A program made the translations under genes and the position numbers. From contig BSYQ01000006.1 in the NCBI GenBank assembly GCA_030272585.1, forward strand, positions 3,125,001-3,189,000: 64,000 nt of DNA, read 5' to 3'. The notes below the pieces were generated by a model. The model searched no databases. It saw only the letters and a program-made list of their open reading frames with translations, and was not told the origin of the DNA. This document shows, piece by piece, positions 26,752 to 56,643 of this stretch (its first letter is position 1; the number at the start of each line of letters is the position of its first letter). Origin of the DNA: Bryopsis sp. KO-2023 (taxonomy: Eukaryota > Chlorophyta > Ulvophyceae > Bryopsidales > Bryopsidaceae).

Positions 26752-29700
26752 ATGAGCGGTGAGTTCCAATATTTTCTGAGGAAAAAAAAACCGAAATCTT
26801 TGTCGGTGTGTGGTGAGATTGCGAGGGACGCTGTGCTGCTCTGTTATCACCGAAAACACCGTGGTTTGATTTCGTCGAGAATCGCGCTGTCCAGCGTTCG
26901 TGGACAATTGCAAAAAAAAAAACGAAAAAAAACAAGACGACGCTGAATGAAATGCGAGGCGAGAGAAAGACTGTCCCGTTTGCTGGCGTTGATTCGACGC
27001 GTGCTGTTTCCTCGTGTCTTTCACGACCTTGCTTTGACTGGGCTTCGTACGGCAACATAGCTGTCCGCGCTGATGCTCCTTCGCGAGGAAAACCTGTTGT
27101 GGATTCTGTCTTTGGTTTTCCCCTTCAATGGACTCTATAGTTTCGCAATTTGGGGCATCAATGCTTCACGGTTTTTTTGTGTCCGACAGAAGGAGCAGGG
27201 GAAGTTTCGTTTTCCTTGGAAAACACTGACAGTTTTTTTGTGTTTGGATGTGGATGTAGACCTGAGAAACTGGGACGAGCGGCCCAAGGTCAAGAAGAAG
27301 GCCAAGGGCTTGAAAAAATTGGGTGAGTTGCCCCACTCTTTTTTCGTTTCCACGGATGCTGCACAAGTTCTCTCTTTTTTTTTCAAGGGGGTTACCGCTT
27401 GTCGCGTCGGGTTCGATTGCTGTTGGTCTTGTGGGAGAGTTTGTTGCTTTTTTCCCCTCCTCGCCCTTGTGCTATTTTTTTCTTCGACGTGTTGTGCCAA
27501 TGAGGAACGAGCACGTGGTTCGCGGTCCGAGTGCACGTCAGAAGATTTCCCCTCCTGTTTTTTATTTTTTGAATTTTTTTCACCCCTTTCTTTAGAAACA
27601 GAGGGAGAGAAAGAGAGATAGGGTTCTGTGTCTAGTTTTTTTTGTACCTTTTTCGAGGTTCACTTTATGAATTCTGTTCCCGCAATTCAGTTTATAAGAA
27701 AAAAAACTTGGAAAAAACTTTCTAAACTATCTTTCATCCAGCCTTCCAGAGAAGCAAACAAAAACATACTCACGCTGGAAAAAATACATCATAGTACACA
27801 TAAAAAAAAGACTATGCCACAGAAACGATAACAAAAAAATTTGCACAAACTCGCACAAGAGAGAAACGATAAACCCGTCCGCAGATCGCTGTGAAATTCA
27901 AAAAAACATTCATTCTAGTGGCGTTTTTTTTCCCTTATTTTTGTCCTTTTCCCGCCTTTCTTTCCCCATAGGAAAAATGGTGCTCCGCAAGAGCCCAGAG
28001 GGTGGGAAAAAAACTCCGGAGTTTCGACCCAGGGAGCACAAAAAGCCGCTGTTACCAAACATAATTCCAAGCGATGGGCATGCTCCGGACGGTCGACGGC
28101 ATTACCATCAGTTGGGGGTGCACCCACCTGAGCAACCCCCACTTAGGGAGTTTTCGCCTGTCATCCCAAAGGCACGCAGGATGGAGAATTCCCCCAGCTC
28201 CAGTGCGAGGTTCATTCAAACCAGGAACGGAAACCTCATAAAAACGCCGAGCATTGATATCCACGGGTTTTTGGAGGCACCCCCCGGTACAGCCAGCGGT
28301 GCCCTGACTGCCCCGATGCCTGTGGAGGACTCGGAATTGCCAGATACTGTGATTCAGGTGCACATGGGGGCTTCTTTTGGGAGGGAGGGAGGGAGGGAGG
28401 GGGGGGTAATCATGCCAGAACATAATATTGCTTTTCTGGGAATTGAGAGTGTAGAGCAGGAAGAATTGATATTTTCTTACAGGGAAACTGGGGTGGGCGT
28501 GGATTGGGGGGCCCCAGGAAAACACAATGAATGCGTAATTTGCTAGGAGGGGGATCATTCAAGAACCAAATTTCTATACAGTTGTACACATGTACACATA
28601 TATACATGAATGTCATTTGCTTCTGAAGGGGGGGTGGGGGCGGGGGCAACCAATATTTTTGCATATTTATTATTATTTTTTTTATTATTATTATTTTTTT
28701 TTTGGGGGGGGGGGTACTGTACACATGAAATCCTTTTTTCACAAAAACTTGAAATTGAATAAGTTCAACTAATTCAATCGAATTGAATAGTTGCTGAGTG
28801 GTTTGTTTTCTGTGGATAGGCTTCGAAGGCTCAAGCCAACATGGATGATTTACTCCGAGAGGCAATGACCCTGAGGTTGGACCTGGAGCAAGATCTCAAT
28901 CAAAATCAAACGAAAAAGGTTCGAAACGTTGCAGCTGAATGGGAATTGCTTCTGCTCCATGTGATATTTCATTTTTTCCTTTTGGTTGGCCATGACTCAA
29001 CGTGATTTGTCATCCTTTCTTTTTGTTTATTTTTTAAGTGTGTTGTCTTTTCTTTTTTTTTTTGGCGGGGGTGATTTGATTGACATTGTTGGTTTCGATT
29101 GGACTCGTAGGAGGTGCTTGAGAAAGAGAAGCGTATGGTTGAGTTGCAGATGGCCAGAGCAACTGATAAGAAAGACTCAGATGTTTTATATGACGAAATT
29201 ATCGTCGATCTCTCGACCCAGTACACAGGGATCGTGGGCAAGCTCAAAGGGGTACGTTTTTAAAGGAGTTTTTTTATTTATACATATTCTGAATTGAATT
29301 GAACTTATTTTCACACGCGGCCAACAGACCGAGTGCAGCCCATTCACGGAAATGTGTTATAGGCTGACTCAGAAATAATCCACCGTATCATCTCAAAGTC
29401 CATATCTAGCTCTCTATCCCAAAGTTGAACTAGAAAGACTAGAAAGAAACTGATTCGAGAACCTCCAGTTATATATATATATATATGTGTGTCGGATTTT
29501 CACAGACACACACGCGCACACATGCCTGCATGCTTGTACATAGCAATACTGCAAGTGGAAATGTTCGGTTCCAGTTGCTGTCTTTCGATATCATGGAACG
29601 ATGCCGACTGTCGTCGGCAAAAAATCTTGAAGATTCTGCTGACCTTTTTTTCGGGGGTTTGATTTCTTCCCCCCTGTGGTGTGATGCAGTTGGACTCTCG

Positions 29701-32700
29701 GGTCTACCCCTTGAATCGAGCAATTGATGACCTCGCCAAAGTGGAAGCTTTTATCAGGGATAACAACGTCCCCGCTGACCGAGCCAACGTCATTCTCCAA
29801 GAAATCATGAAAAAGATGTTTGAGGATTTGAACTTGACGTCGCAACCCGAAGCCCTCGGTCCAGGTGGCCAGGTTTCTATGTCAGTCATGGATGAACTCA
29901 AGGTGAGCACCGTTTCCTTTTGGTTTTAAAGCGAAGCTTTTTTTTTTCAACAGCTTGACCTTTTTTTTGTGTCGGAGAGCTGACAACTTTTTTATTTTTT
30001 TTGTGTTTTAGGAAAAAATTGAAAGTCAAAAGAGTGGAAAGAATCTTTTGAGGAGGACAGGTACAAGGCTTTTTGATGCTCCGGCAGCTACAACCAGTGA
30101 AGCCAGTTCGGAATCATCTTGGGTCCAATTCAATGACTCTCCTGCCGATGACCACCTCCAGGTCAATTTCATTCGATTGACCTCCTCAAAATTGAATTTA
30201 AATAAATAAATAATATATAGATATATGTAAAAATATAAATAACAGACTGAGTAATTGTGTTTTGGAAGTATAATAAAACGATTCTTTCGCGGCTCCAGTT
30301 CAGTGCGGAGCAAAGCAACCCCCTTCCCTAGAAAAAAAACAAAACAAACGTTTGTGAAATGAGAAGCAAGGCAACCATTGGAAAACCCGTGAATAAAGAA
30401 ACTTCGCTTTTGCTTTTCTCTTAGCTCATGATATGGGAGCTTCACAAACCCTCCACACAGATGCACATTTTTTTTTAAAACAAAAAATTGAAATCCCGAG
30501 AACAACAATCCTGACACTGGCAGCTTTTTTTTTCCTTGTCTGACTATCCGCAGGTCCAACAATCCAGTGCCTCCGGTTGGAGGAGATCAGAATGGGAACA
30601 GGTATCTGCAAAAATGAACAAAGTCAAAAGAGTCGCCCACGCGTCCGGGAGAAGCAAAACGCCCATTTCGTTCAATCAACCGCCTCGAAGCCAGACTCCG
30701 GAGACCTGCTTTCGGGATGCCGGTCAGTTTCCGGTCAGCTTCCCTATTTACGGTAGGCTATCCCCTGGACCGGCTTCACCCAGTGGAAGGTCGTCCAGAT
30801 TTTCCGACACCAGGAGTGTGTTAACGTTGGAGGAATTGTCTGCAGAAGAGTTTGCTTTTGCTGGGGTGGATCGGCAAGGCCCGCACTCTGTGTTCAATGG
30901 TGGAATGAGGAGCTGCGGAAGTGGGGCGAACCTCAGAATGATGGATTTGGGAGACTCCATGAGCGCATCCTCGAGACTGGGTCACAGCATGATGCCGGAC
31001 GGGTTGGGAATGAGGTCGGGTGGAGGAAATCGATCGCCGCTGCCTCAAGGCCGAGAGGAGGTCACAATAAATGTCAGATTAGCACCGGGGCAAGCGGAAC
31101 AGCCTAGGACGCCACGAGCGGCTCCTTCTCAACTCCACGAGTCCGTCGTCATTCCGATCATGGTGGTCGGGGACGATGGAAAAGCAAGGAGGTTGGATGC
31201 CGGGGTGTCGGGCACCGCCGCTTCATCACAGTCGACCGCATTTAGACAGGGTGGCGGAAACACAGGAGATGGGGAGGGATTCACTGCCGTCTTTCCACCT
31301 CCAGTGGAATCAACTTCAGGAGCAGGAAGAGGTTCTTCAGGTTTGGGTCCTGGGCTTGGTCCAGGTTTGGGTCCTGGCTTGGGGCCAGGTTTGGGTCCCG
31401 GTTTGGGTCCAGGCTTAGGGGCAGGACAGGGTCCTGGTTTGGGTCCTGGTCAAGGTCCCGGTTTGGGTCCTGGTCAAGGTCCTGGTTTGGGTCCAGGCTT
31501 AGGGGCAGGTCAAGGTCCTGGTTTGGGGCCTGGTTTAGGGCCTGGTCAAGGTCCCGGGCAGGGTGCTGGTCTAGGACCAGGGCAAGGTCCAGGTTATGGC
31601 GATGGAAAAGGACGAGGGCAAGGATCTGGTCAAGGCGAAGGACAAGGACAAGGGCCTGGGTCAGGACTAGGGGCTGGCACCGGGAAGGGGGCTGCAATCG
31701 AATTCAACATGAACAAAATGGATGTCGGAACGCTGGTCGCTGCCATTGGTGGTGACAGTCAGAAGGGTAAGCACGAGGAAAGCCACAATACCAAGATTGT
31801 TTTTGCATTTTAAGCATTTTTGGCTTGATTTTTTTGTTTTCGTTTCGGCCCTGCTAGGCGCTGATTCCAAGAAGGAGGAGAAGAAGGAAGCCGAAGTCCA
31901 AGCAAAGGCACGAGAAAATTCCAAGGAGGAGGAGCTCAAAAAGGCGGAGGAGGAAAAGAAAAAGGAAGAGGAGGAGTTGAAAAAGAAGGAAGAGGAGGAG
32001 GAAAAAAAGAAGAGGAAGGAGAAGGAGGAGGAGGAAGAGAAAAAGAAAAAGTTGGAGGAGGAGCAAAAGCTGAAGGAAGAGGAGGAAAAGAAGAAGGCGG
32101 CGGAGGCCGCCAAACCTCCTCCTCCGAAAAAGAAACCTCCCCCTCCGCCCCCTCCGTTGAAAAAGAAGGCTCCCCCACCCCCGCCACCTCCCGGTGGCGG
32201 GAAGGGCATGAAGGGAAAGAGACCTCCACCCCCACCTCCAGGCGGTTTGAAAAAGGGAGCAGCTGGTGGTGTGCAGAGACAACCTCAGGTATGGTTCGAG
32301 TCGAGGGAAGAAACAAAGGATGCCCTGTTTTGATTCTATCTCGTTAATTGTGTTCGAAGGTTGTTTTGGGAGCCCTTCAGCGATTGCATCAGGGGCTTGT
32401 ATTATTGTTTTTCTTTCCCATTTTGGGGAAAAAAGGTGGAGAGGGGATATAGTCTTCATAGACAAAACTACTCCTTTCCTTTTCCTCCTTTTTTGTTTTC
32501 AGCTGTGTCTGACACGGGGTTTCCCTCCCTTTTTTTTCTGTTTTTCCAGGTCATCGAAATGTTTCAGGAGGTTCGAAGAGCTCTCTTGGGCCAGCAGTCT
32601 CAGAAGTCGTCAGGACGGGCTTTCGGTGGAGGCGGCGGTGGGAAAGCTATGGATGCCAGCGATTTGTTCGCTGAGATCTCCAAAAACAGTCAATACGCTG

Positions 32701-33836
32701 TCAGCATTCAGCAAGACATCACCAAGTACGACCAAGTGATCAAGGATTTGATAAAAGAGATCGCGAATTTCAAGGCCAAAGACATGAGGCACCTTCTGGA
32801 GTTCGTGAACAGCACGGATTCTGTGCTGGACGAACTTTCGGACGAAACGGCGGTGTTGAAAAACTTCAGCTGGCCGTCCAAGTATTTCGTTTTCCGGGAG
32901 GCTCGGCACATGTACAACGAACTGGACGCCATGAAGAAGAAATTCAGGGAGTGGAAAAAACACCCGCACCGGTCGAACGCCGATGAATTAAGGGAAATGC
33001 AAAAGTGCGTGGAAAAGACGATCGAACGGATAGATCAGTTGATGAGGACGAAGGATGCCGACGAAAAGAAGTTCAAAGAAGCTGGGATTCCGTGGAATGC
33101 GAAAATCGTGGTGGAGGTGAAGCACGCGTCGTTGCATTTGATGGATGCGTACATGAAGTTGGCTCTGGAAGAGGTGGTCCGAATAGAAGGCCGAGAAAGG
33201 GATGTCGACAAGTGTCGAGAAAAGTGCCTCAACACATTGACTGGTAAATGGGATGACTTGATATATATATAGAGAGAGAATTTGTAAATTTAATGAATTT
33301 TTTTTTGTTTGGATATATGTGCACGCGTGTTGGGTTTTCTGTGTTTTCTGCATCTTTTTATGTATTTATTGGTTTTTATGGAGAACGTTTAAGAAACCAG
33401 TTTTTCGTGAAATAAATTAATTCTCAACGAAAATAGAAGGAACGTCATCCTTGAGTAATATTTTTTTGCTGCTTTTCTTTTATTTTTTTGTGGAATGCTT
33501 TCCTCTTTTTTTTTTCTTTTTTTAATACAAGCGGTTGAAACCTTTTTTGTGTAAGCTTTTTTTTGGGTGGTTCATTGCTTTTTTCGGTGGCTGCTTCTTC
33601 TTTCAATGGAGTCTGACGTTCGGTCTTTTTTTTGTTTTTTTTGCAAACTCCTCTCAGGGACCATTCGATTTTCGTTCAAGGTGCATCAATTTGCTGGCGG
33701 CTTTTCGGAGTCTTGCTCGACCCGATTTGCCGAAATCAGCGCAAAAACGCGCGCATTGACGAAACCTGCTTCGGAACAGGAAGGGAAAGGGAAAGGGAAA
33801 AAGGTTGTTGAAGCAAAGTCTGGAGAAGAAAAATGA
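26752..33836 (+). CDS. CHUP1-like actin-regulatory protein, paralogue A
   Basis: Exons: 26752-26758 (7 coding nt: Met-Ser plus one base), 27260-27322, 27972-28357, 28820-28918, 29111-29251, 29690-29902, 30012-30161, 30554-31766, 31858-32288, 32550-33243, 33658-33836; 1191 aa. Order: basic N-terminus; Pro/Arg-rich region; coiled-coil-like helices (MTLRLDLEQDLNQNQ, then a Glu/Lys/Arg-rich helix); a conserved 71-codon exon (YPLNRAIDDLAKVEAFIRD); a Ser/Arg-rich linker; a GPGLGPG array; a Glu/Lys helix; a polyproline tract; then the CHUP1 C-terminal domain (IEMFQEVRRALLG, AVLKNFSWPSKY, AGIPWNAKIV, IRFSFKVHQFAGGF). In land plants CHUP1 sits on the chloroplast outer envelope and nucleates short actin filaments for light-driven chloroplast movement. 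The N-terminal hydrophobic envelope anchor of plant CHUP1 is not visible here. Identity of the C-terminal domain is confident; chloroplast function is inference. Confidence 0.87.
29311..29416 (-). repeat. Dispersed repeat copy in CHUP1-like A intron
   Basis: Reverse complement matches 51951-52055 over about 105 bp (roughly 85% by eye), sharing CTGAGTCAGCCTATAACAC and GTGAATGGGCTGCACTCGG. It lies in intron 29252-29689. Confidence 0.75.
31345..31682 (+). repeat. Coding minisatellite: Gly-Pro-Gly-Leu/Gln array in CHUP1-like A
   Basis: Degenerate tandem DNA units of about 12-18 bp (GGTCCTGG and TTGGGTCC variants) encode about 110 residues built on GLGPGLGPG and GQGPG units. The array is uninterrupted in frame and lies upstream of the Glu/Lys helix and polyproline tract. 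The composition is elastin/collagen-like and should be flexible and disordered. Confidence 0.92.
31860..32115 (+). other. Encoded single-alpha-helix (E/K/R-rich) segment unique to paralogue A
   Basis: About 80 residues composed almost only of Glu, Lys and Arg with a few Leu, Ala and Gln (for example EEEELKKKEEEEEKKKRKEK). There are no hydrophobic heptads, the pattern expected for a stable single alpha helix acting as a rigid spacer rather than a coiled coil. It directly precedes the polyproline tract. Paralogue B has no equivalent. Confidence 0.8.
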
Positions 33837-36800
33837 GGGGAGTGGGGTGGAAAAAAAAATGTAAGAAAACAAAAAGAAGAGGAGAAAAAAAAGGGAATTT
33901 TCTTGACATAAGGGATGTTTCTTCGAAAAGGTTGAAAAAAAAAAAGGAAAGGAAAAAAAAAATGATGATTTTGGGGGGTGGAGATTGGAGGGGTGGTTGA
34001 ATGTGGGGGAGCTCGATCAACGATTAAAGCAAAGAAGCATAGGCAAGCAAAAAAAAAAAGTGTGAGAGAGAAAAAAAATGAGATTTTTTTGTTTTTTTGG
34101 AGAAAGAAAAGAAAAAAAGAACTTTCTTGCCGTGTATAATATATGAGTTGGTTTTCTTGGGGGGTGTTATTATTATTTTTCTTTTTTTGGTTTTTTGGGG
34201 GAGGGGGAAGCCTATTTTGTCTTCTGGGGGGAGGAAAAAAACAAAAAGAAAAGAAAGGTGGAAAAGGAAAGAAAAAACAAACTCGAGAAAGGGATATCGG
34301 AAAAAGGGAAGGGGAAAAGGGGGGAAAAAAAACAAAAGAAAAGAAAAGAAGTGGTGTTTTTTGTTTTTTTCTTCTCGTATTGGTATGTGTTTTTTGTGGT
34401 GGTGTTTGTTTGTTTGTTTGTGTTTTTTTTCCCTCATCAAGACGGTGGATATATGTATGTGTGTGTGTGGTTTTTTTTTCCCTCATCAAGACGGTGGATA
34501 TATGTACGTGTTTTGTTTTGTTGTTCTTTTTTGGGGGAAAAAAGGAAAAAAAAAGATAGAGATGACAAAAGCCCCCCTTTTTCCCAAAAAGAAAAAAAAG
34601 AAAGCAAGAAGGAAGGGGAAAAGAAAAAACAAAGGTTATGTGTTTCGACTTGCATATTCGGAGAAAAAAAAGGTTATGTGTTTCAACGGAGAAAAGGAAG
34701 CGTGTGGTGGTGTTGTGTTTTTTAAGGCCAAGAGAAACAGACAGACGTCCCAGACTTGCCATAAAAAAAGTTGAAAAAAAAGAAAAGTATAAAGAAAGAA
34801 AAAGACAAAGAAAAAACTACTTTCATCAAAGGGGAGAATATCGCTTTTGTTGTTGTTCTTTTGTTGGACATCGCATCCTGGAAAAAAAAAAATTCTCATT
34901 CGGACTGGTGGCTTTTTTTTTGTACATACGTTGTTTTTATTATTGTTCGGCTGGTATCCATTCTTATGTTGGTTTTTTTCTTCCTTGAATGGAAGTTGAG
35001 TTTTGGTGGGGTGTATTTAAAAAGAATAGGGAAATAAAGCACACCAAAAAAAAAGAATTAAAAAAAAAAAAAAGAATATCAGGAAAAAAAAAACAGAAAA
35101 ATATAATACACAGGAAAAAATTATCATATTCACTCGTCTCTCTCTGTCCTGCTGTCCCTACTGGCAAAAAAAAAACAAAAAAACATTTCAGGATGCATAT
35201 TATCTGTTATTTTCAGCGAAAAAAGAAAAAGGAAGAAAGAAAAAATAAAATAAACAATCAAGAGGATAATTGTTTGCATATTTGTACTGTTTTCTTTCTT
35301 GTGTTTTTTGTCCGGGGGAGGGGGTTTTAAGTTCTCTTTCGAGAAATGGAAAAGAAAAAATTATAAGAAAAAGTGAAAAGATAATGAGGGGATTTTTTTT
35401 TTTTTGGCAAGATCGGGAAAAAAAAAGAAAAAACTCTTCATAAACTGTTTTATGTACGTATTTTTTTTCCTTTTCTGTTTGTCATCTTTGATCATTCTTT
35501 CTCTCACACTCTTGGATCAATTTGAAAAAAAAAAAAGAAAACGCACACCAGCAGGAGAGTTTTTTTGTGTTTGTTTTTTTTTGCGATATTATTTTTTCGG
35601 ATATTCTTTTTTGATTCCCCTTTTTTTTGGTCGTATTTTTTTTCCCGTCTTTCGAATGTGCTGTTTTTTGGGGGGTGGATTTGCGGGAAATGATTAAAAT
35701 GGGGGTTGGTGGGGAGAGGAAAATTATTGGAAAGAAACAAACAAACTGTAAGCGGATGATAAAAGGAAAAAGAAAAATAGTTTTTTCTTTTTTAAATGGA
35801 TACAATGGAGTATGAAAAGAGCCAAAACATTTGGTCGATGATTATTTTTTTTCCCGCTTTTCGGGAAGAGTGGGGGTCGTTGTACATGCGTGTGTGTGTG
35901 TTTCTTTTTGAAATGATGTGAGTTTCTGGATTTGCATTTTTGGGGAGAAGGACGCACTGGAGGAAAGAGAGGGGGGGGGGTAACCGGGAGGGAGGGGGGA
36001 CATAAACAAATATTGATTTGGGTGGTTTTTAAGAAAAGATAGCTTTCAGTCAATTGTATAAAAAACCCCAATGAACTGACCGAAAAACAAAGACGGAAGA
36101 AAAAAGAAAAATATTGGATTCGTGGTGTGAAGAGAGAAAAAGAAATGAAGAAGAAAGATAACCTTATTTGATATGTTCGTTCGATTTCTTCCCTTCCCCT
36201 CCCCACCCCGAAAATATCTTTTTTTTGGGGCTGACTTGAATCCATCTTTCGCAGGCTTTGTTCTTGTGTCCTACATGCAGCCCTTTGTATCGTACATCTG
36301 GCTTTCCTCCCACTCCCCCTTTTTTGTATAAGAAAATAGTGTTTCTTTCTGCGTTGCTTTCCCTGGTTCGATTGTCTCGTCAATTTTCGTGAAAAAAAAA
36401 GAAAAAAAGAAGAAGAAATATAGGGGTCAAGAAATCTGAACAAGAAAAAAAAGGGGTCGGGGAAAAAAAATATAGAAGACCTACAATCAAGGTCGGAAGG
36501 AAGTGTCAAGGAAAAGGGGGGGGGGAGGAGGGGGGTTGATTCAAGGTCCCCCCCCCCCCTTTTTGTTGGATTTGTTTTTTTTATTTCAAGCTTCCTTTCT
36601 TCCCCCCTTGATAAGTAACTCTTACAAGAAGAAGAAAAAAAAAGCAATCGTGAATCAATCGAAATGTGTTTTCAATTTGAGGTGTTAATTTGCTGCCTTG
36701 TCGGATAATAGAAAATAGTGCAAGGGAATTTTTGTGGGTCTTTTGCTTCTCTGTGTGTGTGTGGCTTTGGACTGGCTTTTTTTTTTGTGGAAAGAAAGGG

Positions 36801-38005
36801 ATGAATATATTATATTCAAGATGCTTTGATTGTGTGTATTTGGTAGTTTTGTGTGTGAATCGGGACTGTTGTTGAGAATTATTGGGACTACAGGGAATGT
36901 TCATAACGAACAATAAAAAAAGGGCTGGGGTTTCATTCTCTGATAGATGGATGGATGTCTGTAGGTCCATGTGCATACAGAACACTTTTTTTGCTTTGCA
37001 CTCCAGAAATCTGCTACGTTTTGGTTTTTCACACATCGATTCACATAAAGACTGCCAGCCGTACTCATTCAAAATTGAATATAATAGGCGTTGGGTGGTT
37101 TGTGAATCTGTTTGTTCTGACCCATGAAAGGAGGCAGGTTTTTACTGGCGATTAAGAAAAAAAAGTCGGCCTTCATGACTTCCTAAAACAATGCCACTCA
37201 AAATGACAACAAACGGTCTGATATATTTTCTCCGAGCTGAAACTTAAGGGGAGTGCTCTGTTTGCTGGGGAAAAGGAAGGTTATGTGCTGATACATAGAA
37301 ACTATCTGCTGAGTTCTTTATTCAACAAAGTTGTGTGGTATGGTTGGTGCATAACAGCGCCATCGATGTCCTCTTTTGTGAAATCAGGTTAGAATAGGGG
37401 GGCGCTGTTTGTGCTTCAGATCTACGTGGTGGGTAATACTATGGATTTTATGGAATTGCGCTGGCGACCCTCCAACATGGTGGTGAGCTCAGCTACCCCT
37501 ATCCCCCGACAGGACGAACAAACAACAGAACTGTACAGATGAGTTCATAAGTTCTTACCATCAAGATGGTTTTCCCAACGCTAATATTGATGTCATAACT
37601 CTAAACATCGTGGATGCACAGTTTTCGTTCCTCACAACACTCAATCATAGCATTCTGGGGAAAAACATTTGCCATCTGACTACATTTTGTGTCAGACCAG
37701 TAAATATCACCCCTTGAGTTTTACATCCTTGACTTGCATCCAACAACCTTCTGCCTGCTTGATCGAAGTCGAAACAGATGCACAAGTGGGGGGGACCAAA
37801 AAAAATTTCACAAGTGATGGTGTCAGACTAGGAAGCAATCAACCGTGGCTTTTTTGGTGTTTTTTTGTTCTGGAGGAAACCGTTTTCCGCTTCCCCATCC
37901 TCTCGTCGTCAGACTCCGAGTTGCTGTCTTTACGAGGTAAAGGTTCAGCTTTCTGTCCTCACTGGTGCACTGCTTCAGCAGCGCGCGAAAAGGGTTGCGA
38001 CCAGA
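33837..38005. other. Intergenic 4.2 kb, homopolymer-rich, between CHUP1-like A and the SWT1-like gene
   Basis: Dense A- and T-runs dominate 33840-36660, which gives long spurious open frames. A roughly 50-bp direct duplication containing CATCAAGACGGTGGATATAT occurs at 34435-34455 and again at 34484-34504. GGTTATGTGTTTC recurs at about 34634 and 34672. I find no gene, RNA gene or element. The end of the stretch (about 37000-38005) should hold the SWT1-like promoter. Confidence 0.5.
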
Positions 38006-41000
38006 ATGGAGAGCTCGGAGTCGATCATGTTCGTGCCGACGGACAAGGTAGCGTTTCTGAAAGCGCGGAAAGAATTGGGTGATGTTGGAAAGTCAACGCA
38101 GACGAACGGAGTTGATGCGCAACAGGCCCTTCGAAAGCTAACGAGCAGATCCCTTGGGGAAGCTTTGACTTGGGGGCTTGGGAATTCTGCGGAAGAGTGG
38201 CGTCATGGGAGATGACGTTCGTCGTTCTTTTCTTTGTTGGTGCAGGCCCTCGCTCACTTGCGAGGATACGGGGATCCACCGACGCAATTCCAGCACGAGT
38301 CGGGATTGACTGTGAAGGTGTGCACCGAGAGTTTCTTATTTCTCCTGCTGTCATCAGAAAAGGTCTATTTTTTTTTCCTCAGCGAGATCTCAACCTTCCA
38401 CCTGGCGGTCGCAAGCTGCGCGCTATATTGCGAAGGCGGCCTCCTCCGTCCGTTTCCCTAGCGCTCGCGCTCTGAGCTCGAATCCCCCCAGCATTCTTTG
38501 TTCTGACGACTTTAATGGAGACATCCGCCGTCGTCGAGCGTCGGCTGAGTGGCAATGCGCGCTCGTTCTCTTCGTTGTTTTTTTTGGTGTTTAAGTTTTT
38601 TTTGAACTTGTATGCGTCGGTGTCCGCAGTTCGAAGCAGCCCTGACTCCGTTGCGTGGCGTCTCGGGATTCATCTTGACCATCCCGGAGGAGGGCTTGCT
38701 CACCAGGCAGACGATAAAACATCTTTTAGCTAAAGTCGGACTCACAGGTACGTTTCTGGGTTTTCCTTCGGTGTCTGGCGTTTTTGCTGTTGGCTGCAGT
38801 AACAAGAACGGATGCTGATTGAGCTTTTGTCGCACCTCCACAGACCTCGACTCCAGCACAAAAGAGTGGAAATACGAAAATCACCTGAAAGTAGGTCAAA
38901 AAAACCCACCACTCTGAGAAACCCAGTCATAATAGAAACTCAACCCTGAGTAATTGTCCATTTTCCAACATGACCTCTTCAAATTTTCTGCGCATCTCCA
39001 TGTCCAATCCTCTCCAGCAACACGGTGAATCAATGTATTGATTGTCCCTGCAGGAATTTTTTGGGCCTTACGAGTACTCGAGAATCTGCGACTGGTTCGA
39101 CCAAGGACTGCAGGGGCTGTTCATCCACCACGCGCCCACAGGGGTTTGGATAAAATCAAACGATGTGGTGGGCTTGCACGAAATTCCAGACCTCGGCAGT
39201 CAACCGCACATCCAGCAGCAAATCGTTCCTCCGATCGCTGCCCTGCAAGCTATCCCAGCGCTTCTCAATGGGGCCGGTGGGAGTAATGTGGCGAGCAGTC
39301 ACATGGATGTGACAGTTACGGAGGAGGTGGAATGTATCGATGTGGAAATGGAGGATGTTGTTCCAGAAGAGATTGCGGAGTGGGTTGCTGGGCTCAGAAG
39401 TCAAGGGGGGGACTTGGTAAGTCCAGCTTTTGAGGTGGGATATCTAGATTCCGGTGCTGGCAGGTTTTTTGTTTTTTATCGGGGCTGCCACCATGTAGGG
39501 ATTTCTCCGTAATTATGATAGCATGAACTGGGGTGTTCAAGAAATTCACGTCTCGGTGAAATCGACCTGGTGGAGTGGCGGTGTGGGTTTCGACATTTTT
39601 TTTTCTTTTCTGTGGAGTGAAAAGAGTGGACTGCTCCAAGCTGACCTTTCGATTGTTTTTTTTTAAATCAAATTTTTGTAGGAGACGAATGATGCGATGG
39701 AGGATGTCCAAATGTCTGACATCTGCCTGATGGAGGTCTCCATGGCTAAGGAAATCTCTTCCACACGGCGAATGTATCTGATCGTCGACACCAACGTTTT
39801 CTTGTCCAACCTGTCGCTCATTACGGCGCTCCATCAAATGTATCAGCCTGAAAGGAAAGCTGGAATGGACCCCGCTCCCCCAGAGCTGGTGGTTATAGTG
39901 CCTTGGACGGTGATTTCCGAGCTGGACAAGCTGAAAATGAGAAAATCGATGCACGAAACCAAAACCGGGAAACAGATCCCCGTGGCAAAGTTGGCCAAGA
40001 AAGCGATCGACTGCCTTTTCAGAGCACAGATGCGAAAAGATTCGTTTTACCGGGGGGAAACCGTGGTGGAGTTCAGAGAAGCAAAACGACTGACGGAGGA
40101 GTATGGGATGGCCACGAACGACGACAAAATCTTGAGGTCTTGTTTCTACTTCGGCAAGCAGCTTCTGGAGAGCTGTTCAGGAGGGGTGGTCATGATGTTG
40201 ACCAATGACAAAAACCTGGGGTTCAAGGCCATGAGTCATGGGGTCCTGGCAAAGAGCTCGGACAAGATGCAGGCGACTTGGGAAATGGTGGAGGCCGTCA
40301 TTCATGAGGCGGATGATTTGTCGGGCACTCTCAGACAGCTGCTGGGCCTGCCACTGCCAGATGCAACTATGGGGGAACCCAATCCAGTCCAGCGGAAAGC
40401 TGCACCGAGTGCACCACAGAAAAATACCGTGCCAATGGAAGGGATCAGTCGAGAGTCGGGCCCACCACCGCAAACGCTCCCTGCGGTCAAACCAAGGACT
40501 CAGGAGAATGCCAATGGGCATGGGTATCACAGTGGCGATGCCATGCAGGTGGACACGCCCAGCAACTTGGGGTACAAGAAGGATAAGTCGTCGTATTTTA
40601 GTCCGGCAAACACAGTAAGCACTACTGCTCCGAGCCAGCAACACTATCAGCCGCCAAGCCAGGAACACTATCAGCCGCCTGGCCAGGAAGCCTATCATCA
40701 GCCGCCTAGCCAGGAACCTTATCATCAGCTGCCTAGCCAGGGACACCATCAACCGCCTAGCCAGGAACACCAGCAGCCGCCAATCCAACATCATCAGCAG
40801 CCACCAATCCAGCAACACCACCATGTTCCAAGCCAGCAACAAATGCAGGGTCCAAGCCAGGAACACTATAAGCCACCTGGCCTGGAACCCTATCATCCGC
40901 CTCCAATCCAACAACACCAGCCGCCACCAATCCAACAACACCAGCCGCCGCCAATCCAACAACACCAGCCGCCGCCAATCCAGCAACACCAGCCGCCGCC

Positions 41001-42973
41001 AATCCAGCAACACCAGCCGCCGCCAATCCAGCAACACCAGCCGCCGCCAAGCCAGCAACAAATGCAGGGTCCAAGCGGCGAAACAAGTGATGTGACTCCG
41101 ACAACTCCAGTGCGCCAGGGGGGGCACATGGAGCGAGGGGGTTACAGCAGTGGAAGGGGGGATGCTAGCAGGGGTGGTCGAGGCCAGGGAGATGGTAGTG
41201 CCATTCGTCCCATGATGAGTCCTGGTCAGCGCTCCCGAGGTTCCAGTGCGGATTCACCAGTGAGGGGTGGTCGAGGTGGTCGTGGGCGAATGCCGAGGCT
41301 GCGAGGCAGGGGAGAGCCCCGGGCTCAAGCAAGAAGAAACTCGAGGAACTTGTACCAGCCAGACCCCCGCACCGCAAGGATACTGGCCCAACTGGAATCT
41401 GGTGGCGATTTCCCCTCGTTCAAACATTCACAAATCCTGTCCCGTGCGAAGCAAGTCCTGGAAACTGGCTTGCCTGGTGTGCTTCAGTACTACTTGCAAC
41501 AAGACTTCAAAAACTTGTGGACGGATATTGTGGTTGTGCCGCCTCCTTGGATGTTCAGGGATTGTTTGTCGGTGGCGGAGAAGCATTGGAACTCAGTGTA
41601 CGGCAGCTACTGTCCAGGACCAATCAGGGCATGTCTGGATGAGATTATCATTGGCACAAAGACGGAGCGCAGTGGGGTATCATCTGGGACCGCCCTCAAA
41701 ATCATTGCATGCTCCAGGGACATGCTGAATGCTTTCAAACCACCCCGTGGTGATATCGATAAGCACCTGGGGGGACTGGAGTACCCACCGATTTCGGCGG
41801 ACGAGGCCGGGAGGATGTTGTACGAGGCTCAGCAACAGATCAGTGGGATCTATGAGGAGTTTTGCAATGAATTGGATGGGGGAGCGAGTGGTGGGTATGG
41901 CCAGGGTTACGGTGCTGGTGGGTATGGCCAGGGTTACGGTGCTGGTGGGTATGGGGATGGATATGGGTATGGATATGGCAGAGGAGGTGGGGATGGAGGC
42001 CGAGGTCGAGGATTTGGGAGGGGAAGAGGAGGCCGAGGGGGTGAGTCGGGATATGGCCATGGTGGATATGGTGGAGGGTATGGAGGAGGTAGGACTGGCC
42101 AACAAGACAGCTATGGGGGCAGTAATGGATACGGTGCTGCTCAGCCAGAGGGGAACGGGAATGATGGGCAGGGGCTTTCTTTACCTCCCCCCAGGGCAGA
42201 TCTGTCATGGGTGAGGATGGCGACGAATAATGTACATGGTGGGAGCAAGACAGGGAAGGAGATCCTGGAGTTTATAGCCAAGCTCCAGGCTGCAATTCAG
42301 GAGGCTGCCGATCGTGATAGCAAAGCGATCTTGGAAACCCCAGGTAAAAAATCGGGTCTGGAGAAGGTGGTGTTGGCAATGAAAGAGCTTTATGACAGTG
42401 TGTGCTGGGTGACGTATGAGTTAAGGGAGGGTGGCGAAAAAATCAGCGATGAAACTCTTGGCGAACTTATCAAAAAGATGCAGGGATTCGTTTCCCAGGT
42501 AGGAAGGCTGCAGCACTGTCCAAAGAAACGATAAAATGAAATGAAGAAAATAGTACAAGGCATGTTTCTTATATCATAATAGTGTGTGCATTGTTGCTAG
42601 CATGCAATCTACGCACACTCAAAAAATCCCCAAGAAGAGCTCCTTTGTTCGTCGCATTTGAGAAGGGATGCTTTCCTCGATTGTGTCTTAAAAGTTCGAT
42701 GAATGTGAATGGATTAGTGGTTTCCCCTACAGTGGATCGCTGAAAGGCCTGTGTGTTTCATTCATCGTGTACTTTCAGGTGTATACCGACTCCAACAGAA
42801 TCTGTGGTAAGACACTCAGCATGCCAACGGACATGTTCAAGGCTCAATTACGATCCGACATCGTCGGTCTCTACAATGCCGGGCAATTCTACGATATGCA
42901 GCTGGTATGGGAGAAGCGCTACGACCATTTTATCAAGAATTTTGATCTTGTTTTTGGGACCAATGCCAGCTAA
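38006..42973 (+). CDS. SWT1: SWT1-like endoribonuclease with GYF domain, PIN domain and HEPN-like C-terminus
   Basis: Exons: 38006-38047, 38246-38317, 38630-38747, 38844-38890, 39054-39416, 39682-42498, 42779-42973; about 1217 aa. A GYF-type domain spans three exons (KEWKY, then FFGPYEYSRICDWFDQG), comparable to CD2BP2-type GYF domains that bind proline-rich ligands. The PIN domain follows, with YLIVDTNVFLSNL (catalytic Asp), VPWTVISELDKLK (catalytic Glu/Asp) and VMMLTNDKNLGFKAMSHGV (third acidic site). A long Gln/Pro repeat and an RGG-rich stretch come next, then the Swt1 C-terminal helical domain (KNLWTDIVVVPPPWMFRDC, AEKHWNSVYG). Family knowledge: yeast and human Swt1 are nuclear-envelope quality-control endoribonucleases acting on mRNPs with TREX. 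A YG-rich insert interrupts the C-terminal helices. If the last intron is retained, the protein ends at 42534 with a different tail. The first exon boundary (38047) is the least certain. Confidence 0.82.
40620..41075 (+). repeat. Coding minisatellite: Gln/Pro/His repeat in the SWT1-like gene
   Basis: Degenerate units of 18-27 bp encode SQEHYQPP and then IQQHQPPP motifs. The last six or so units (about 40900-41050) are nearly identical 24-bp copies of the CAACACCAGCCGCCGCCAAT type, suggesting recent expansion. It forms a disordered linker after the PIN domain. Confidence 0.92.
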
Positions 42974-45508: not shown

Positions 45509-45893
45509 GATTTCAACAGACTTGGCACTTCTGTGCCAAAGAGGTTTTCAGCATTGGGTTTGGCTGATTGATGATGTTGGTCCCCTCTCAGTGTGCTTTG
45601 AGAAAAAAAATGGGGAAAGGGTTTTTGAAGGGAGACTTTTGTGTGCAGGAAGGCAGAGCTTTTGCTGAAGCCGACAACCCTCATCGTCTGTAAAGCAAGT
45701 AAGGAGTTCATCTCTTTTTGACTGGCAAGCTTGGTTTGTTTGAAACCAGTGATCTCCATTGATCCAGGGGGAAAGGGTGAAAAAATGCATTTCATCTGGA
45801 AATAGAGACCGTGTGCGAGGATGGGGGGAAAAATTTGATGTTGCTGGAAGGGGGGGGGGGGGTCGAAATTATCTGAAAATGCATGTGCTTTAG

Positions 45894-48832: not shown

Positions 48833-50760
48833 TACCAAGGAAAAGAGCATTTTTTTTTCGACAGGGCAAAAAATCGTTGCACCCCAATATCGTTGTGAAT
48901 TCTCTTATCAGTCCCTTGGACATTCTTTTCAGCAGTGGTCTCGTTTTTGTTTCTTTTTTTATATGACTTTTAAAAATCTTTGCCGAAAAATCGAATTACC
49001 TTTTTTGGATATCCTGTTGTGGTTTCTTCCCCCGCTGTCCCTATAACAAGGTTGTATCGATATTGAGCGATGGATCATGCTTTCTTTGCTGCTTTTTTTG
49101 TCCTGAAATGTAATTGTGTAATGCATCAAGACTGACATGTGGGTTAATTTGATCTACAGTATTTCCATCGATCCGCGTCTCTAAATAAGAAAAAAATATT
49201 TTTTTGTGTGTTTTTTTTCAACTGGTTCATTCGAGGTCTCTGTTCCTTTCGAGCACCATAAAAAAACAAACAGCAAGGAAAAAGGGTCAAAAAAAATCTG
49301 AAAAATGGTGAATTATATAGGACAAGACAGTGGTGGTGTCACTGGTCGGATTAGAAGTCTGCAAGCAATGCTTTCTGTTTTTTGTTTTTTTTTGCTGATC
49401 CGCATCTTATCAACCTTGAAATTCTCTTTTCCTTGTGGATGAATGTTGGAACAGCTTTTCACTGGAGCTATTATGAGTTGGTTATTTTTTTTCTTTACGA
49501 TCACTCTATGATTTCACACTGGTTGGAAATCCAACACATCAAAACGAAGAGAATTGTCAAAAAATTGGAATCAACCTCTCAACAAACACACAACTTTCCT
49601 CTTTTTTTTTTTTTTTTTGGGGGGGGGGAGATCATTCATTATGCTTGCATGGCACATTGAACAGAACTACTATTGAACAGAACTACTGCAAGCCGAATCA
49701 TAACATAACACCACCACGAAGAATGAAAATCTTGCAGCGGTGAATTTCAGCGTGCAAATTTCAGCCCACGGGCGTCCCCCGCTGTTGACTGTTTTTTTGC
49801 AAGCATTTAGAGACGGACTGTGATGCATATTTTTGGGCAAAAAACACCGCGGATTGCATTCTGATCGACTTCGGGAGCGGATGCCAAGCATCAACATAAA
49901 GCCAAACCCACACGATTGACTACAAAACAACAAGAAGAAAAGAAAGAAACTTTCAACAGCTTTTTCCAGAAGCAAATTTGTTGGCTTGAATTTTTTGTTT
50001 TTTTCTCCATATCGATAAGGAGAAGCAGTAGGCTTGACGGTTTTTCCTGGGAAAGACATCAGTTGTTGTTTTTTTGCCTGCCGAGTACGCATCGCAATCA
50101 GCGTAAGGTGCGGACCTTCTTTTTTGACGTCGAGTTTGCCATCCCTTGTTCGCGCGTATCGAAAACTTCCTTCGATCAGCATCCGAGTTTTGTTTCGCTT
50201 TTTTCCCAGACCCCCCCCTCGATGAAACCTTTTTTTTTTTCTTAACCTGTTTTCGTTTTCGCTCCCCCGCTTCGTTCGGGTTTTACAGAACACGCCAGCG
50301 ACGAGGGATAGGTTCGTTCAGCGGAGCCAGTTTAACGCTCCCTCCGTGAGAAGGTGTGCAGCAAGTGCTTGTTGGAAGTCGAATAACAACCTATTCATGA
50401 TCCCTCAACCCTCATTTTTTTCTTTTTAAAACTGTTTTTCATTGTCTTGGATGAAACTGCAGCATCCTATTTTATTCTGCAGCATTGATTTTCCAGATCT
50501 GCAAATTCCATGTGATTCTTGATCAAGTCTCGGAAGCTTCGTATGGCGAGTCCTAAAGGACCTGCCATTTGATTTCCTTGTTTTTTTGTTCAAGGAATAA
50601 TGACGATTTCAATTTTTTGTTCTGCTCCCTTTTTCATGGGTTGTATTTTCTTAAGGTCCCTTTTCTTTTTTTTAGGGTCTTTTTTTTCTGTTGTTTCTCT
50701 ATTGTGACACGAGGGATGTTTTTTTGTGTTTTTTTTTTTAATCCAGGGAAATTTGCAAAC
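48833..50760. other. Intergenic/5' leader between CPBP and CHUP1-like B genes
   Basis: The stretch includes the CPBP 3' end and the CHUP1-like B promoter. A possible non-coding 5' exon of the latter runs from about 50289 to 50346. It begins after TTTTACAG, and neither donor choice (50346 or 50363 region) gives a phase that fits the next coding exon. A 16-bp direct duplication (ATTGAACAGAACTACT) lies at about 49657-49688. Nothing else is recognisable. Confidence 0.45.
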
Positions 50761-53700
50761 ATGGATAAAATGGAAAGTCTGAAGGCTGAGGCCTTCAAAC
50801 TGAGAAGGGACCTGGAGCAGGAATTGAGGAATCACCAATATCAAAGGGTGGGCTGCGTTTCGTGTGTGTGCTGTGCAGGAATTTTCTCCTCATTAAAACT
50901 CATATTTTTTTCCTGTTCATTTTTCGACAATTCTCTGTGCATTATTTCAATTTTAACAAGGCCTTGTGAAAAAAACTGGTGCTTGGTTCGACATTCGCTC
51001 TGCTGTTCGTGAGGTGGAATGAATATGTTTCTAGTTATCATATTGGACAGCGTTTCTCATGGAGGCCATCCACATGCCTATGGATATACATATCTATAAT
51101 ATATCATGCGATCTATCATGCTTTCCAGTCATTTCTAGAAAGAGAAATTATCCTGACACATGTTTGTTTCTTGGCGACCTCCAGGAAGACCTCATGAAGG
51201 ACAAACGCCACATCGAATTGGATATCACGAAAAACCGAGCCTCGCAATTCCGTCGGAAATCGTCCCACCACGAACCCGACGACGAAATGATAGAACTCAT
51301 GGACAAACTCAGCACGCAAGAAAACTTGATCAGAAAGGTGGGGGGAAAACTTGGGGCAATGTTAGCCGAGTCCGAATATTTTCCACCAACTCCAGCAACG
51401 TCCAAGCTTCTTTTCAGAACGAAACAAAACATACACGCCGCAGCACAGAATAATTTTCTCGTCTTGGTTTGACGAAGGGGGGATTTGGTGTTTCTGAAAA
51501 TGGCTTGGCAGGTAGATGCCAAGATTTTTCCGTTGGAAAGGGCTTTGGGGGATCTTGGGCAAGTTTCCACCATCATGGACGACAGGGAGCTGTCGTACGA
51601 GGATGCGGCCCAAGAAGTGGAGGACATCATGGCGAAAATGTTTGGGGACCTCAACCTCTCCAAAGAAACAACATCCACCACGTCTGTCGGGCACATGCCG
51701 AAAAGCTTGATGGAAGAGTTGAAGGTGAACCATTCTTTGGCCGTTGTTTTCTTTTTTCTTCTTCTTGTGTTTTTTCATGAATGGCTCATTGATTGAGACT
51801 TGAAACAGGCCCCAGGGTTACAGCCCCAATGGCCTTCTCAAGTGTAAACAGATTCCTTCTTCTGTTTTTATTTTCCTTTTGAAAAGAATAAGTTGCACAG
51901 ATCTCCATTTATATAATAAACACTAACTGTGATATTACTCATCTGGGGTAGAGAGCTAGATACGGACATTGGGATGAAACGGTGGTTTTCTTCTGAGTCA
52001 GCCTATAACACGTTTCGGTGAATGGGCTGCACTCGGCCTTTTGGCGTTGTGTAAACTACTTTCAACTCAATTATTCATCTGATGAAGGTTTTCTCTCTTG
52101 GTTTTTTGCCCCCCTCTTGGATCCAAATATCCAAGCAAACATCCTCAGCTTTTTCTTTTCTTTTTTTTTTTTAAGGGAAAAAGAGCGAGAACAAATTTTG
52201 CGAAAGTTATTATTAGTATATTTAAGAGGATTGTAGTGTTTGATTCTCGATCTTTACAGTGTCCCTTTTTTGTTTTTCGACTTTTGTTTTCCAGGAAAGG
52301 CTCGAACAGGGCTCCTTGAGACGGCAGAGGGATGCCCTGTCTTCCGTTTCCTCCACCAATTTGGACGTGGATGACTATTCTTACGACACCAAAATCGTCA
52401 CCAGCAAGACGATCCAGCCAAAAAAAATGTGGCACAAACATGATCTCGCCAGGGTTTCCATGAAATTGGACAGGATCAAAGGGGTGTCCAAAAAACAGCA
52501 GCTGGGAGGAGTGAGCAGGACCCAGGCGTTCAACTTCCCGGCGGTCGATCGTGCAGATGCTTTCAAGGACCCGGATTACTGGCCCACCGATATTGAAGAG
52601 CCTCCCAGTGACGACTCTTCTGATGGCATGTCAGCCATACACGAGGAGACATCGTCTCAAGAAAGTCTGCCATACGTTCCGAAAGACAGCATAGATGAGG
52701 ATGTAATGATGTCTCTGGGACTGGAGCTGGACGAATATGAGCCTGCCAGGGATCCTTTCCGCAGCGACAATCTCGTGTCACTGAACATCAACGTGGGGGA
52801 CTCACAGGATGCCCCTGCATCACGCAGCGGTACAGGGACTGGGACGGCAGCAGGAGCAGACAATCAAGGTGGTCAATCAGGGATGGGCGACAGCTTGGGT
52901 TCTGGTGAAGGACCTGGGTTAGGTCCTGGAAAAGGCCCGGGACAGGGACCAGGATTAGGTCCAGGTGATGGAGCGGGATTGGGGCCAGGCATGGGTCCTG
53001 GGAAAGGCCCTGGACTGGGACCTGGTGGTGGTCCTGGATTGGGACCAGGCGATGGTCCTGGATTGGGACCAGGTTTGGGGCCAGGCGATGGACCTGGGAA
53101 AGGTCCTGGGTTGGGACCTGGTTTAGGGCCAGGCGATGGACCTGGGAAAGGTCCTGGGTTGGGACCTGGTTCAGGGCCAGGCGATGGTCCTGGCTTGGGT
53201 CCGGGTGGTGGACCTGGCTTGGGTCCTGGTTTAGGGCCGGGCGATGGACCTGGCTTGGGGCCTGGTTTAGGGCCGGGCGATGGACCTGGCTTGGGTCCTG
53301 GGTTAGGGCCTGGTGATGGACCTGGCTTGGGGCCTGGGTTAGGGCCTGGCGATGGTCCTGGGTTGGGTCCAGGTTTAGGGCCTGGCGATGGTCCTGGCTT
53401 GGGTCCTGGCTTGGGTCCTGGTGAGGGGCCTGGATTGGGTCCGGGAAAAGGGCCTGGCTTGGGCCCAGGATTAGGGCCTGGCGATGGTCCGGGATTGGGT
53501 CCGGGATTGGGTCCGGGTTTAGGGCCTGGATTGGGTCCTGGACTGGGACCAGGCTTAGGACCGGGCTTGGGTCCTGGTGATGGCACGTTTTCACTGAATC
53601 TGAACATCATGGGTGATGGAGCTGGGGTGGCAGGCTCAGAAAGAAGTGGTCCTGGGGGAGCAGGTGGTAACGCAGGGGGTGGGGATACTACGGTCAACGT

Positions 53701-56643
53701 CCCCATCAGCGTTAGCGACTCAGGAACAGCCAACGTTGGCCAGGGCTTTGGAGGGCCAGCTCCTGCTGGGAAAGGTCCCCCAGGTTCAAGTCCAGTGGGT
53801 GGTGCTGCCCATGGCGGTGATATGCAATCTGGGCCTTCTGTTGGGTCGACCCCTGGAACTGGTGGTGGTGGGGGCAATGCTGCTGGCCCAGGAGGTGGTG
53901 CACCTGGCACGGGACCTGGAGAAGGGAATCAAACAGGACTGTTGTCAGATGGTTCTGGAGCAGGAGCCGGTACAGGTGCCGGTACAAGTGCTGGTATAGG
54001 TGCTGGTGCAGGCGGCTTTCTTTTTCGCAGCAAAGCTGCAAAGCCATCAGAAGCGATGCAAAAATGGTATGGCCTCCTCGAAAGGGCGTTCAAAAAGAAA
54101 AGCGAAATCCCTGTTGGACTCGTCGCTCAAGCAGTCAAAGAGAAGAACGCGGTCCCCACAGAAGTTCTGCCAACAGTGGACCTCAAGGGGATGAAGCTCA
54201 ACATAGACCTGCATGACCCTACAAACCGTAAGCCACCATTCTTCAGTCAATCACGATTTTTGTTGGTTAAATCACTCCTCTGCCATGCCATTTCCATCAT
54301 AACCAATTTTTGTGTCGTTTTTCCAGTTCCAAAACCCACAGGACCACAGATTGAGCTGGAAGTTACTGCTGAACCACTGCCAGAGCTGAAACCTACACCA
54401 CCACCAGCTCCTCCAAAACCTACAGCACCACCCCCGGTGCCCCCTCCTCTGAAACCAGCAACAGCACCCCCACCACCCCCACCTGCAAAGCCCAAGACAG
54501 CACCCCCACCCCCTCCCCCTGGCGTCAAAAAGGGTGCACCGCCGCCTCCCCCTCCTCCACTCAGAGGCAAAGGTGGTGGGCGAGGCCCACCCCCTCCCCC
54601 ACCTGGTGGACGGGGTAGGGGCCGAGGTCGGGGGGGTCCACCCCCACCTCCAGGAAGGGGCAGAGGCCGTGCAGGTGGTCTGAAGCGGCAGCCAAAGGTA
54701 CCTAGATCGGCATATTCATGGATATAATGTACTGCAATGCAACCCCCCATGTCTTACATACATTCATGCTGAGAACAATCGTGGTTTATGTTACGGAGCT
54801 GCCAGTCTACGTTGCTAGCAAGAACTGATGGAGTCGATTTTATGGGCTCAAGAAACCTGTTTTTTCATAAAACGGTGAGAAATATTGACCTGAAGTACAA
54901 TGATATGTCTGACAGGTCATCGAGATGTTTCAAGACATGCGCCGCCAACTGCTGGGTAACCAGAAAGGCGGTGCCGGCAGGAAAGGGGGGGGTGCGAAGA
55001 GCAATGAGCCGGTGGATGCAAACGCCTTTGTGGCAGAAATGCAAAAGCATAGCCCTTATCAGCAGCGGGTGAACGACAACATCATCAAATACGGCCCAAT
55101 TATCAAGGATCTGGCAAAGGAGGTGGCGAATTTTGCTGCCACGGACATCAAGCATCTGCTGGAGTTCGTGGAAAGCACGGATGCGCTGCTGGAGGAGTTG
55201 GAGGATGAGTTTGCTGTGCTGAAGAATTTTGATTGGCCCAAGAAGTATCAGACTTTCAGAGAAGCGAAGGTCATGTATGGAAAGCTGCAAGAGATGAAGA
55301 AGAAATTCAAGGAATGGCCCAGGGTGAAAAACAAGACGGCGACGATGGAGCTTGCGGACATCCAGAAATATATGGTGAGCTGATACCGTTTTTGAGAAAT
55401 GTATGGTGAATTTTTTTGTATTGGACTCGGGGTTTTTGCGACTCGGGGTTTTTAAATAAATATGTTTTGTTACCATGTGGAGTCGGGGGTTTTGAATCCT
55501 GACAGAAGCTTTTTTTTTTCTGCTGTGATGAAATCTTCTGCAAAATTTTGTTTGATCCAGAAAAGGCTGTCTCGTATCTGTTGAAACAAAATCATGGTCG
55601 ACAGTATGTGGGTTCGTCGCTTTCTTTTTACTTTTTCCATGATCGTCCGAGTCCCCCTTCACTTTTTCTCTATCTGTAGTGTGCATTGCAAATGTCGATT
55701 GCTTATTGAGTGCTGTGGGCCCCCCGCAATACGTCGTCCAAACTACCCATTCTCACAGTCAAACTCCCCAAGACGTCCTGCTGAGTCGTTCATATTGTAC
55801 AGTCTGTCACACCTGCCGGCATGTGCTTATTTTTTTATTAATTCATTCACTTTTTTCTTTCGTTTTTGTCTTTTTGTTCCCTGCAATCAGGAACAAACGA
55901 TCGACGCCATCGATAAGCTGGAACGCACAAGAGAAGGGGACGAAAAGAAATACAAGGAGGCCAAAATTCCGTGGAACAACAAAATCATAACCGAAGTCAA
56001 AGTGAGCTCTCTTGCTTTGATGGACACGTACATGAAAGTCGCCCTGGAGGATGTGGGGAAGCTTCTGGCAAACGAATCCAATGCAGCAAAGCTTAAGGAA
56101 AAGGGAACCAAGACATTGAACGGTGAGCACCGGTGACTTGCCACCCAGATGTTTTTTAAAAGTTTTTTCTTTGAAATTTAGTTTGCAATTTGGATGTCGT
56201 TGGTTTTTTTTGCTTCCCCACGTTAGGAAAGAAAATTTGAATTCTAAAAAATTTAATAAAAAAGATTCGGTTGGCTGTCCACAGAATATATGATATGTGG
56301 ATATTTTGTTTCCTCTGCCATTTTTTTGTGCAATTTTTTATAGGAAAAGAGAAAATTGAAGAAAAAAACTGGTGCATTTTTTTAAGTGTTTGTTTGTTAG
56401 GGAAGATAGAGTGCTCTTTTGAGGTGAAATTTTTCTTATTCTCCCTATCTTTTTATTACTTTTTTTTCTCCAAAAAAAAAGAGATTTCAGGTGATGATTT
56501 AACTTTTGTTTTTTACACCGTTTTTTCCAGGAACGCTTCGGTTTGCATTCAAGGTCCATCAATTTACAGGGGGATTCGACGATGATTGCAACGCACGATT
56601 TTTTGAAATTTGCGACAAGGTCAAAGAATTTCAAGCTATGTGA
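50761..56643 (+). CDS. CHUP1-like actin-regulatory protein, paralogue B
   Basis: Exons: 50761-50847, 51185-51337, 51512-51724, 52295-54227, 54327-54697, 54916-55374, 55891-56122, 56531-56643; 1186 aa. ATG 50761 is the first in-frame Met after a TTTAATCCAG acceptor and matches an internal Met of paralogue A, so upstream coding exons like those of A are absent or unrecognised. Order: two helices (MESLKAEAFKLRRDLEQEL), the shared 71-codon exon (FPLERALGDLGQVSTIMDD), a linker, a roughly 225-aa GPGLGPG/GDGPG array, a Gly/Ala-rich stretch, a conserved helix (MQKWYGLLERAF), a long polyproline and RGG tract, then the CHUP1 C-terminal domain (IEMFQDMRRQLLG, AVLKNFDWPKKY, IPWNNKIIT, LRFAFKVHQFTGGF). 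The last blocks match land-plant CHUP1 (AVLKHFDWPE; VRFAFRVHQFAGGF). Proposed function by homology is actin filament nucleation. It lacks the Glu/Lys helix of A. Confidence 0.87.
51797..52055 (+). repeat. Dispersed repeat, longest copy (SINE/MITE-like), in CHUP1-like B intron
   Basis: 51797-51859 matches 25023-25084 inverted, and 51951-52055 matches 29311-29416 inverted and 23847-23900 direct. The copy therefore appears to span about 260 bp with a diverged middle. There are no open frames, and I see no clear terminal repeats or pol III boxes, so its class is unknown. It lies in intron 51725-52294. Confidence 0.65.
52900..53585 (+). repeat. Coding minisatellite: GPGLGPG/GDGPG array in CHUP1-like B
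   Basis: About 225 residues of GPGLGPGLGPGDGPG-type units are encoded by tandem DNA blocks of roughly 30-45 bp (GGGCCTGGCGATGGTCCTGG variants), the most homogeneous around 53200-53420. Asp and Lys punctuate at regular spacing. The frame is fully preserved. Confidence 0.93.

Follow-up and report, generated by a model that had tools for sequence, protein, structure and literature searches.

Do chlorophyte algae possess actin assembly factors of the CHUP1 type, and what would such factors do in a giant coenocytic cell? The question is raised by two genes, designated A and B, in a stretch of 64,000 nucleotides (nt) of the genome of Bryopsis sp. KO-2023 (contig BSYQ01000006.1, C6:3125001-3189000; the whole stretch is termed the window). 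The plant protein CHUP1 assembles actin filaments for the movement of chloroplasts. One paper calls it a lineage-specific actin nucleator (PMC11853071), and a survey states that chlorophytes lack orthologues of CHUP1, KAC and PMI1 (Suetsugu and Wada 2016, PMC4853393). No report of a chlorophyte CHUP1 was found among literature titles and the openings of abstracts, and the Bryopsis genome paper or the CHUP1 actin-polymerisation paper might mention one. A previous reading of the window (the sequence-only reading) proposed two CHUP1-like paralogues that combine a Gly-Pro array, an FH1-like polyproline tract and a CHUP1 C-terminal domain. This proposal is partly supported: it names the domain correctly but takes too narrow a view of the family. 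With a probability of roughly two in three, A and B encode CHUP1/IPGA1-type (PF26700-type) profilin-fed actin assembly factors with an extended spacer, for which the actin activity and the location are predicted.

The CHUP1-type C-terminal domain

Alignment of the C-terminal domains with Arabidopsis CHUP1 gave a score of 311 for A (83 identities in 265 columns; best of 200 shuffles, 56) and 285 for B (85 identities in 263 columns; best of 200 shuffles, 61). In a phmmer search of the PDB with the domain of A, the top match was CHUP1 (8wag, E 1.6e-31), and the predicted fold of the A and B domains is the all-helical fold of the CHUP1 C-terminal domain. A relative, P0004, which is 86% identical to the B domain and carries the precomputed label PF26700, is encoded on a contig of 991 bases that reads through both splice junctions of the B domain. 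On these similarities, A and B are assigned to the CHUP1/IPGA1 C-terminal domain family (PF26700, IPR040265). A Chara paper names the domain CHUP1/IPGA1-like (IPR040265) and describes an N-terminal hydrophobic signal in CHUP1 (PMC12086157).

Formins (FH1-FH2) share with A and B the layout of a polyproline tract followed by a helical domain, and the FH1-like polyproline ahead of an all-helical domain would also fit FH2 formins with a diverged FH2 domain. However, neither domain matched PF02181 (FH2) at E up to 1, a range in which the HMMER filters discard most matches above about E 0.1, and the FH2 locus detected in the genome lies elsewhere (C1:4366854-4367865), with a polyproline frame just upstream of it. 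FH2 formin identity was rejected on these grounds and is regarded as highly improbable, in agreement with the sequence-only reading, which had preferred CHUP1 homology. The structure matches listed for the domains include no formin chain, an observation that by itself excludes nothing. Searches of Pfam returned 11 weak families for the A domain, all below cut-offs (best 16.9 bits), and ALIX_LYPXL_bnd at 20-21 bits, also below cut-off, for the B domain and P0004.

Gene models and the (Gly-X)n array

The models of A and B were built by hand from GT-AG introns, and their 5' ends and the splicing of the whole mRNA are predicted. Gene A (28841-33836, 982 residues, 7 exons) and gene B (50761-56643, 1186 residues, 8 exons) both lie on the + strand, in line with the same-strand pair proposed, and the domain coordinates first suggested (32550-33836 and 54916-56643) agree with the exon models. 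The encoded proteins share one order of parts: an N-terminal charged, helical-looking region (about 145-150 residues in both), a low-complexity linker, a Gly-X array, polyproline, an RQP-Q/K-VIEMFQ motif and the C-terminal domain. Six introns are common to A and B with identical phases (0, 0, 0, 1, 0 and, for the last one, 1), and B contains one additional phase-0 intron within the C-terminal domain. The chosen start codons both lie in the context AACATGG. The start of A at 26752 given by the sequence-only reading was not confirmed; the start codon of the A model lies at 28841, and another coding exon, beginning at 27977, may precede it. A coding score derived solely from A, B and the neighbouring PIN gene gives the stretch 27974-28409 a value of 0.195 bits per codon, compared with 0.198 for exon 3 of A, and the other two frames are negative. 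Nothing upstream of B resembles the possible extra exon convincingly, and the upstream regions of A and B gave no DNA match and no protein match better than E 0.027.

The array, the polyproline tract and the domain follow one another in both gene models, which bears out the order proposed earlier. In B, a single open frame of 827 codons contains the array and the polyproline, and in A the two are connected across a 91-nt GT-AG intron with both ends in the same phase. The array itself, previously described as GPGLGPG, is real and stricter than described, since glycine occupies every second residue without a break in both A (59 of 59 positions over 117 residues) and B (113 of 113 positions over 225 residues).

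At the DNA level the array consists of tandem units, and its length is unequal in the two genes, both of which would be expected if DNA slippage had produced it incidentally in a tolerant linker, without a role of its own. This explanation is considered rather unlikely. Among codons that differ between positions 36 nt apart, synonymous differences outnumber non-synonymous ones in A (39 to 25) and in B (105 to 25), whereas random single mutations of the same array codons give a ratio of about 30:70. The mostly synonymous differences between units, together with the exceptionless glycine alternation, make the array look translated and constrained as protein. In addition, a genome search with the B array (E up to 1e-6) found B itself, A and four weaker places, and these four are only 52-58% identical. 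Among the 18 loci with a CHUP1-type domain in the genome (see below), the strict array was found only upstream of A and B; in the fetched upstream stretches, strict Gly-X alternation scored 20 of 20 in A and B versus 4 to 8 of 20 in the 16 other loci. Long poly-G runs that read as polyglycine occur in the DNA upstream of L012, L013 and L017, and these are distinct from the Gly-X array.

Attachment, location and the likeness to plant proteins

According to the proposed mechanism, the C-terminal helical domain would bind actin and promote filament assembly like the Arabidopsis CHUP1 domain, and the polyproline tract ahead of it would recruit profilin-actin. As a long and flexible spacer, the (Gly-X)n array, which is probably disordered, would allow the actin-assembling end to reach away from the N-terminal attachment. 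The N-terminal helical region would provide the location by binding an organelle, the cortex or microtubules.

Arabidopsis CHUP1 (PDB 8waf/8wag) differs from A and B as follows: it has an N-terminal envelope anchor, which the A and B models lack; A and B have the added (Gly-X)n array; and CHUP1 is a streptophyte protein, whereas the host of A and B is a chlorophyte. CHUP1 also contains a long N-terminal coiled coil; among plant proteins, the comparison of N-terminal regions covered IPGA1-like ones (see below). The highest 19-residue Kyte-Doolittle mean is 0.85 in the A model, 0.83 in the B model and 0.57 in the possible extra exon of A, so that no hydrophobic anchor is recognised. As the envelope anchor is lacking in the models, attachment to the chloroplast is not assumed. 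Thus the term CHUP1-like holds for A and B as regards domain homology and fails as regards the anchor; as modelled, they appear to be members of the domain family other than CHUP1 proper. True CHUP1 orthologues, anchored to the envelope via a missed N-terminal segment and driving light-responsive, actin-based chloroplast movement, would account for the domain homology, and A may indeed have an unmodelled 5' coding exon. At C1:8100555-8101262 the genome also has open frames of 518 residues with two LOV-like matches, which are 66% and 47% identical to a phototropin LOV domain; such a frame is expected, because chlorophytes possess a phototropin according to the survey (PMC4853393). In the same survey, chloroplast accumulation in Bryopsis is reported as a slowing of microtubule-dependent streaming (PMC4853393), and this report, together with the anchor-less models, makes such orthology unlikely. 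Since orthology to CHUP1 proper is unproven, the survey's statement on chlorophytes is challenged and not refuted.

Another possibility is that A and B are IPGA1-like proteins, that is, cytoplasmic and located at cortical microtubules or other membranes instead of on chloroplasts. IPGA1 itself is microtubule-associated. Plant IPGA1-like proteins of 387-440 residues carry the same Pfam label, PF26700.1, as P0004, and those compared (P0017 and P0030) resemble A and B in having a short N-terminal helical region without an anchor, then polyproline and then the same domain. The layout of polyproline and domain is therefore not specific to CHUP1, and it was found in four of five plant relatives (P0011, P0015, P0017, P0022 and P0030); the four of these five that extend upstream of the domain have no Gly-X array. 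In length, A and B exceed the IPGA1-like proteins two- to threefold, and comparison of the N-terminal regions with IPGA1-like N-termini revealed no similarity (hhalign probability 0.1%). Moreover, six plant sequences form one group in the tree described below, so that A and B fall with no single plant branch. This possibility is thus held to be credible only as a minority view.

Regarding profilin-fed assembly factors with a spacer, the absence of N-terminal similarity to IPGA1-like proteins is one of several points that weigh against this preferred explanation. The identity of the A and B domains to CHUP1 is just 31-32%. The N-terminal regions, which are 38% identical between A and B, gave no match in the PDB at E up to 1, and in Pfam at E up to 0.1 there were two matches below cut-off for B and none for A. 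When the N-terminal region of B was searched against the genome (E up to 0.01), only B and one exon of A were matched. A search with residues 15-190 of P0001 found no homologue that would speak for a linker and array conserved between species, and the literature yielded no experimental work on the domain from any chlorophyte.

A family of 18 loci and its wider meaning

The domain search of the genome (91,088,769 bases in 28 contigs) gave 27 exon-level matches, grouped into 18 loci, of which C3 carries five, C6 four (A and B included), and C4, C13 and C14 three each. The paralogous pair does exist, yet it is not a lone pair. The 16 other loci were fetched and modelled; of the 16 loci with a model that covers the position of the phase-0 domain intron of B, 14 have this intron and two (A and L012) lack it, and 12 of 17 loci have their last intron in phase 1. 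The proline maximum within 2.5 kilobases upstream of the 16 other loci is 9 to 20 per 40 residues, values without a chance control. In-frame stops occur in the models of L012 and L022, and stops were flagged at C3:5855013 (L012), C14:2280653 (L019) and C4:3632310 (L018); the 18 loci need not all be working genes, given these stops. Exon-level searches of the same kind detected one locus each for FH2, profilin and ARPC2; numbers obtained in this way are minimum values, as short exons may go undetected.

A tree was made from 25 rows, namely 14 of the 18 Bryopsis loci, five relatives (P0004-P0008) and six plant sequences (five of 27 plant matches and the Arabidopsis PDB sequence); L012, L013, L018 and L019 were omitted as partial or damaged. 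The plant rows form one group (100/100), A and B with the five relatives a second (84/82), and the 12 other Bryopsis loci a third (96/93), for which the program warned that long branches meet there. Within the second group, P0008 is the partner of A (93/92) and P0004-P0007 join B (92/94), and the duplication that gave rise to A and B is therefore probably older than the separation of these lineages.

With an 18-locus chlorophyte family, the distribution of the domain would span the deepest split of green plants, and the giant single cell would be a system for asking whether the domain served first in general actin assembly or in chloroplast positioning. A and B may bear on the origin of chloroplast photorelocation, as was suggested earlier. 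A broader scenario is offered tentatively, as one that could easily be wrong: CHUP1-type factors may have taken over the role of formins in this alga (18 loci versus one detected formin locus). A and B would be a subtype of long standing, in which the (Gly-X)n spacer allows one end of the protein to hold an organelle or the cortex while the other end builds actin some way off. On this view, the CHUP1 domain would predate the divergence of streptophytes and chlorophytes or would have passed between the two, and its use in chloroplast photorelocation would have come later. Between a domain ancestral to green plants and a transferred one, the tree is no arbiter.

Table 1. Parts of genes A and B and the gene lying between them, in window positions
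Feature	Position	Strand	Remarks
A, possible additional first coding exon (uncertain)	27977..28357	+	open frame; donor CAG/GTGCAC at 28358
A, exons 1-3: N-terminal helical-looking charged region, starts MDDLLREAM	28841-28918, 29111-29251, 29690-29902	+	GT-AG introns, all phase 0
A, exon 4: linker of low complexity, (Gly-X)n array	30554..31766 (array 31340-31690)	+	
A, exon 5: Lys/Glu-rich stretch, polyproline tract, QRQPQ motif	31858..32288	+	22 Pro in a 40-residue window
A, exons 6-7: CHUP1-type C-terminal domain	32550-33243, 33658-33836 (stop codon 33834-33836)	+	
PIN-domain gene between A and B (context)	39682..42534	+	PF13638, E 7.5e-21
B, exons 1-3: N-terminal helical-looking region, starts MDKMESLK	50761-50847, 51185-51337, 51512-51724	+	GT-AG introns, phase 0 like A
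B, exon 4: linker, (Gly-X)n array, Gly-rich stretch	52295..54227 (array 52910-53584)	+	
B, exon 5: polyproline tract and KRQPK motif	54327..54697	+	25 Pro in a 40-residue window
B, exons 6-8: CHUP1-type C-terminal domain	54916-55374, 55891-56122, 56531-56643 (stop codon 56641-56643)	+	

The PIN_4-domain protein between A and B is encoded in one 950-codon frame and includes a QHQPPPIQ repeat region as well as a Gly/Arg-rich part. Elsewhere in the window, frames at 2554-5164 match FG-GAP repeats (PF13517) and the DEX1 beta-sandwich (PF23722) and probably belong to a DEX1-like gene, and a 158-base unit is present in three tandem copies at 58027-58497 (82% matches).

In the genome as a whole, 107 exon-level matches to PF00504 (LHC, green-type) were obtained. 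One Lhcb is identical at 222 of 223 positions to PDB 8hlv ("Bry-Lhcb1"), a structure from Bryopsis corticulans, and chain d of 9jzr is equally close; this match points to Bryopsis or a very close bryopsidalean. Polyubiquitin in Cercozoa carries an insert; the polyubiquitin units of this genome stand at an exact spacing of 228 nt, without an inserted residue, and a chlorarachniophyte origin was rejected for this reason. An unusual clustered family was observed at C17:134906-198226, where nine of ten ubiquitin-like matches lie in open frames of 279-355 residues. Three such frames lie in one piece of this region (L041), and the two examined consist of PF00240 and a PARP-like match below cut-off.
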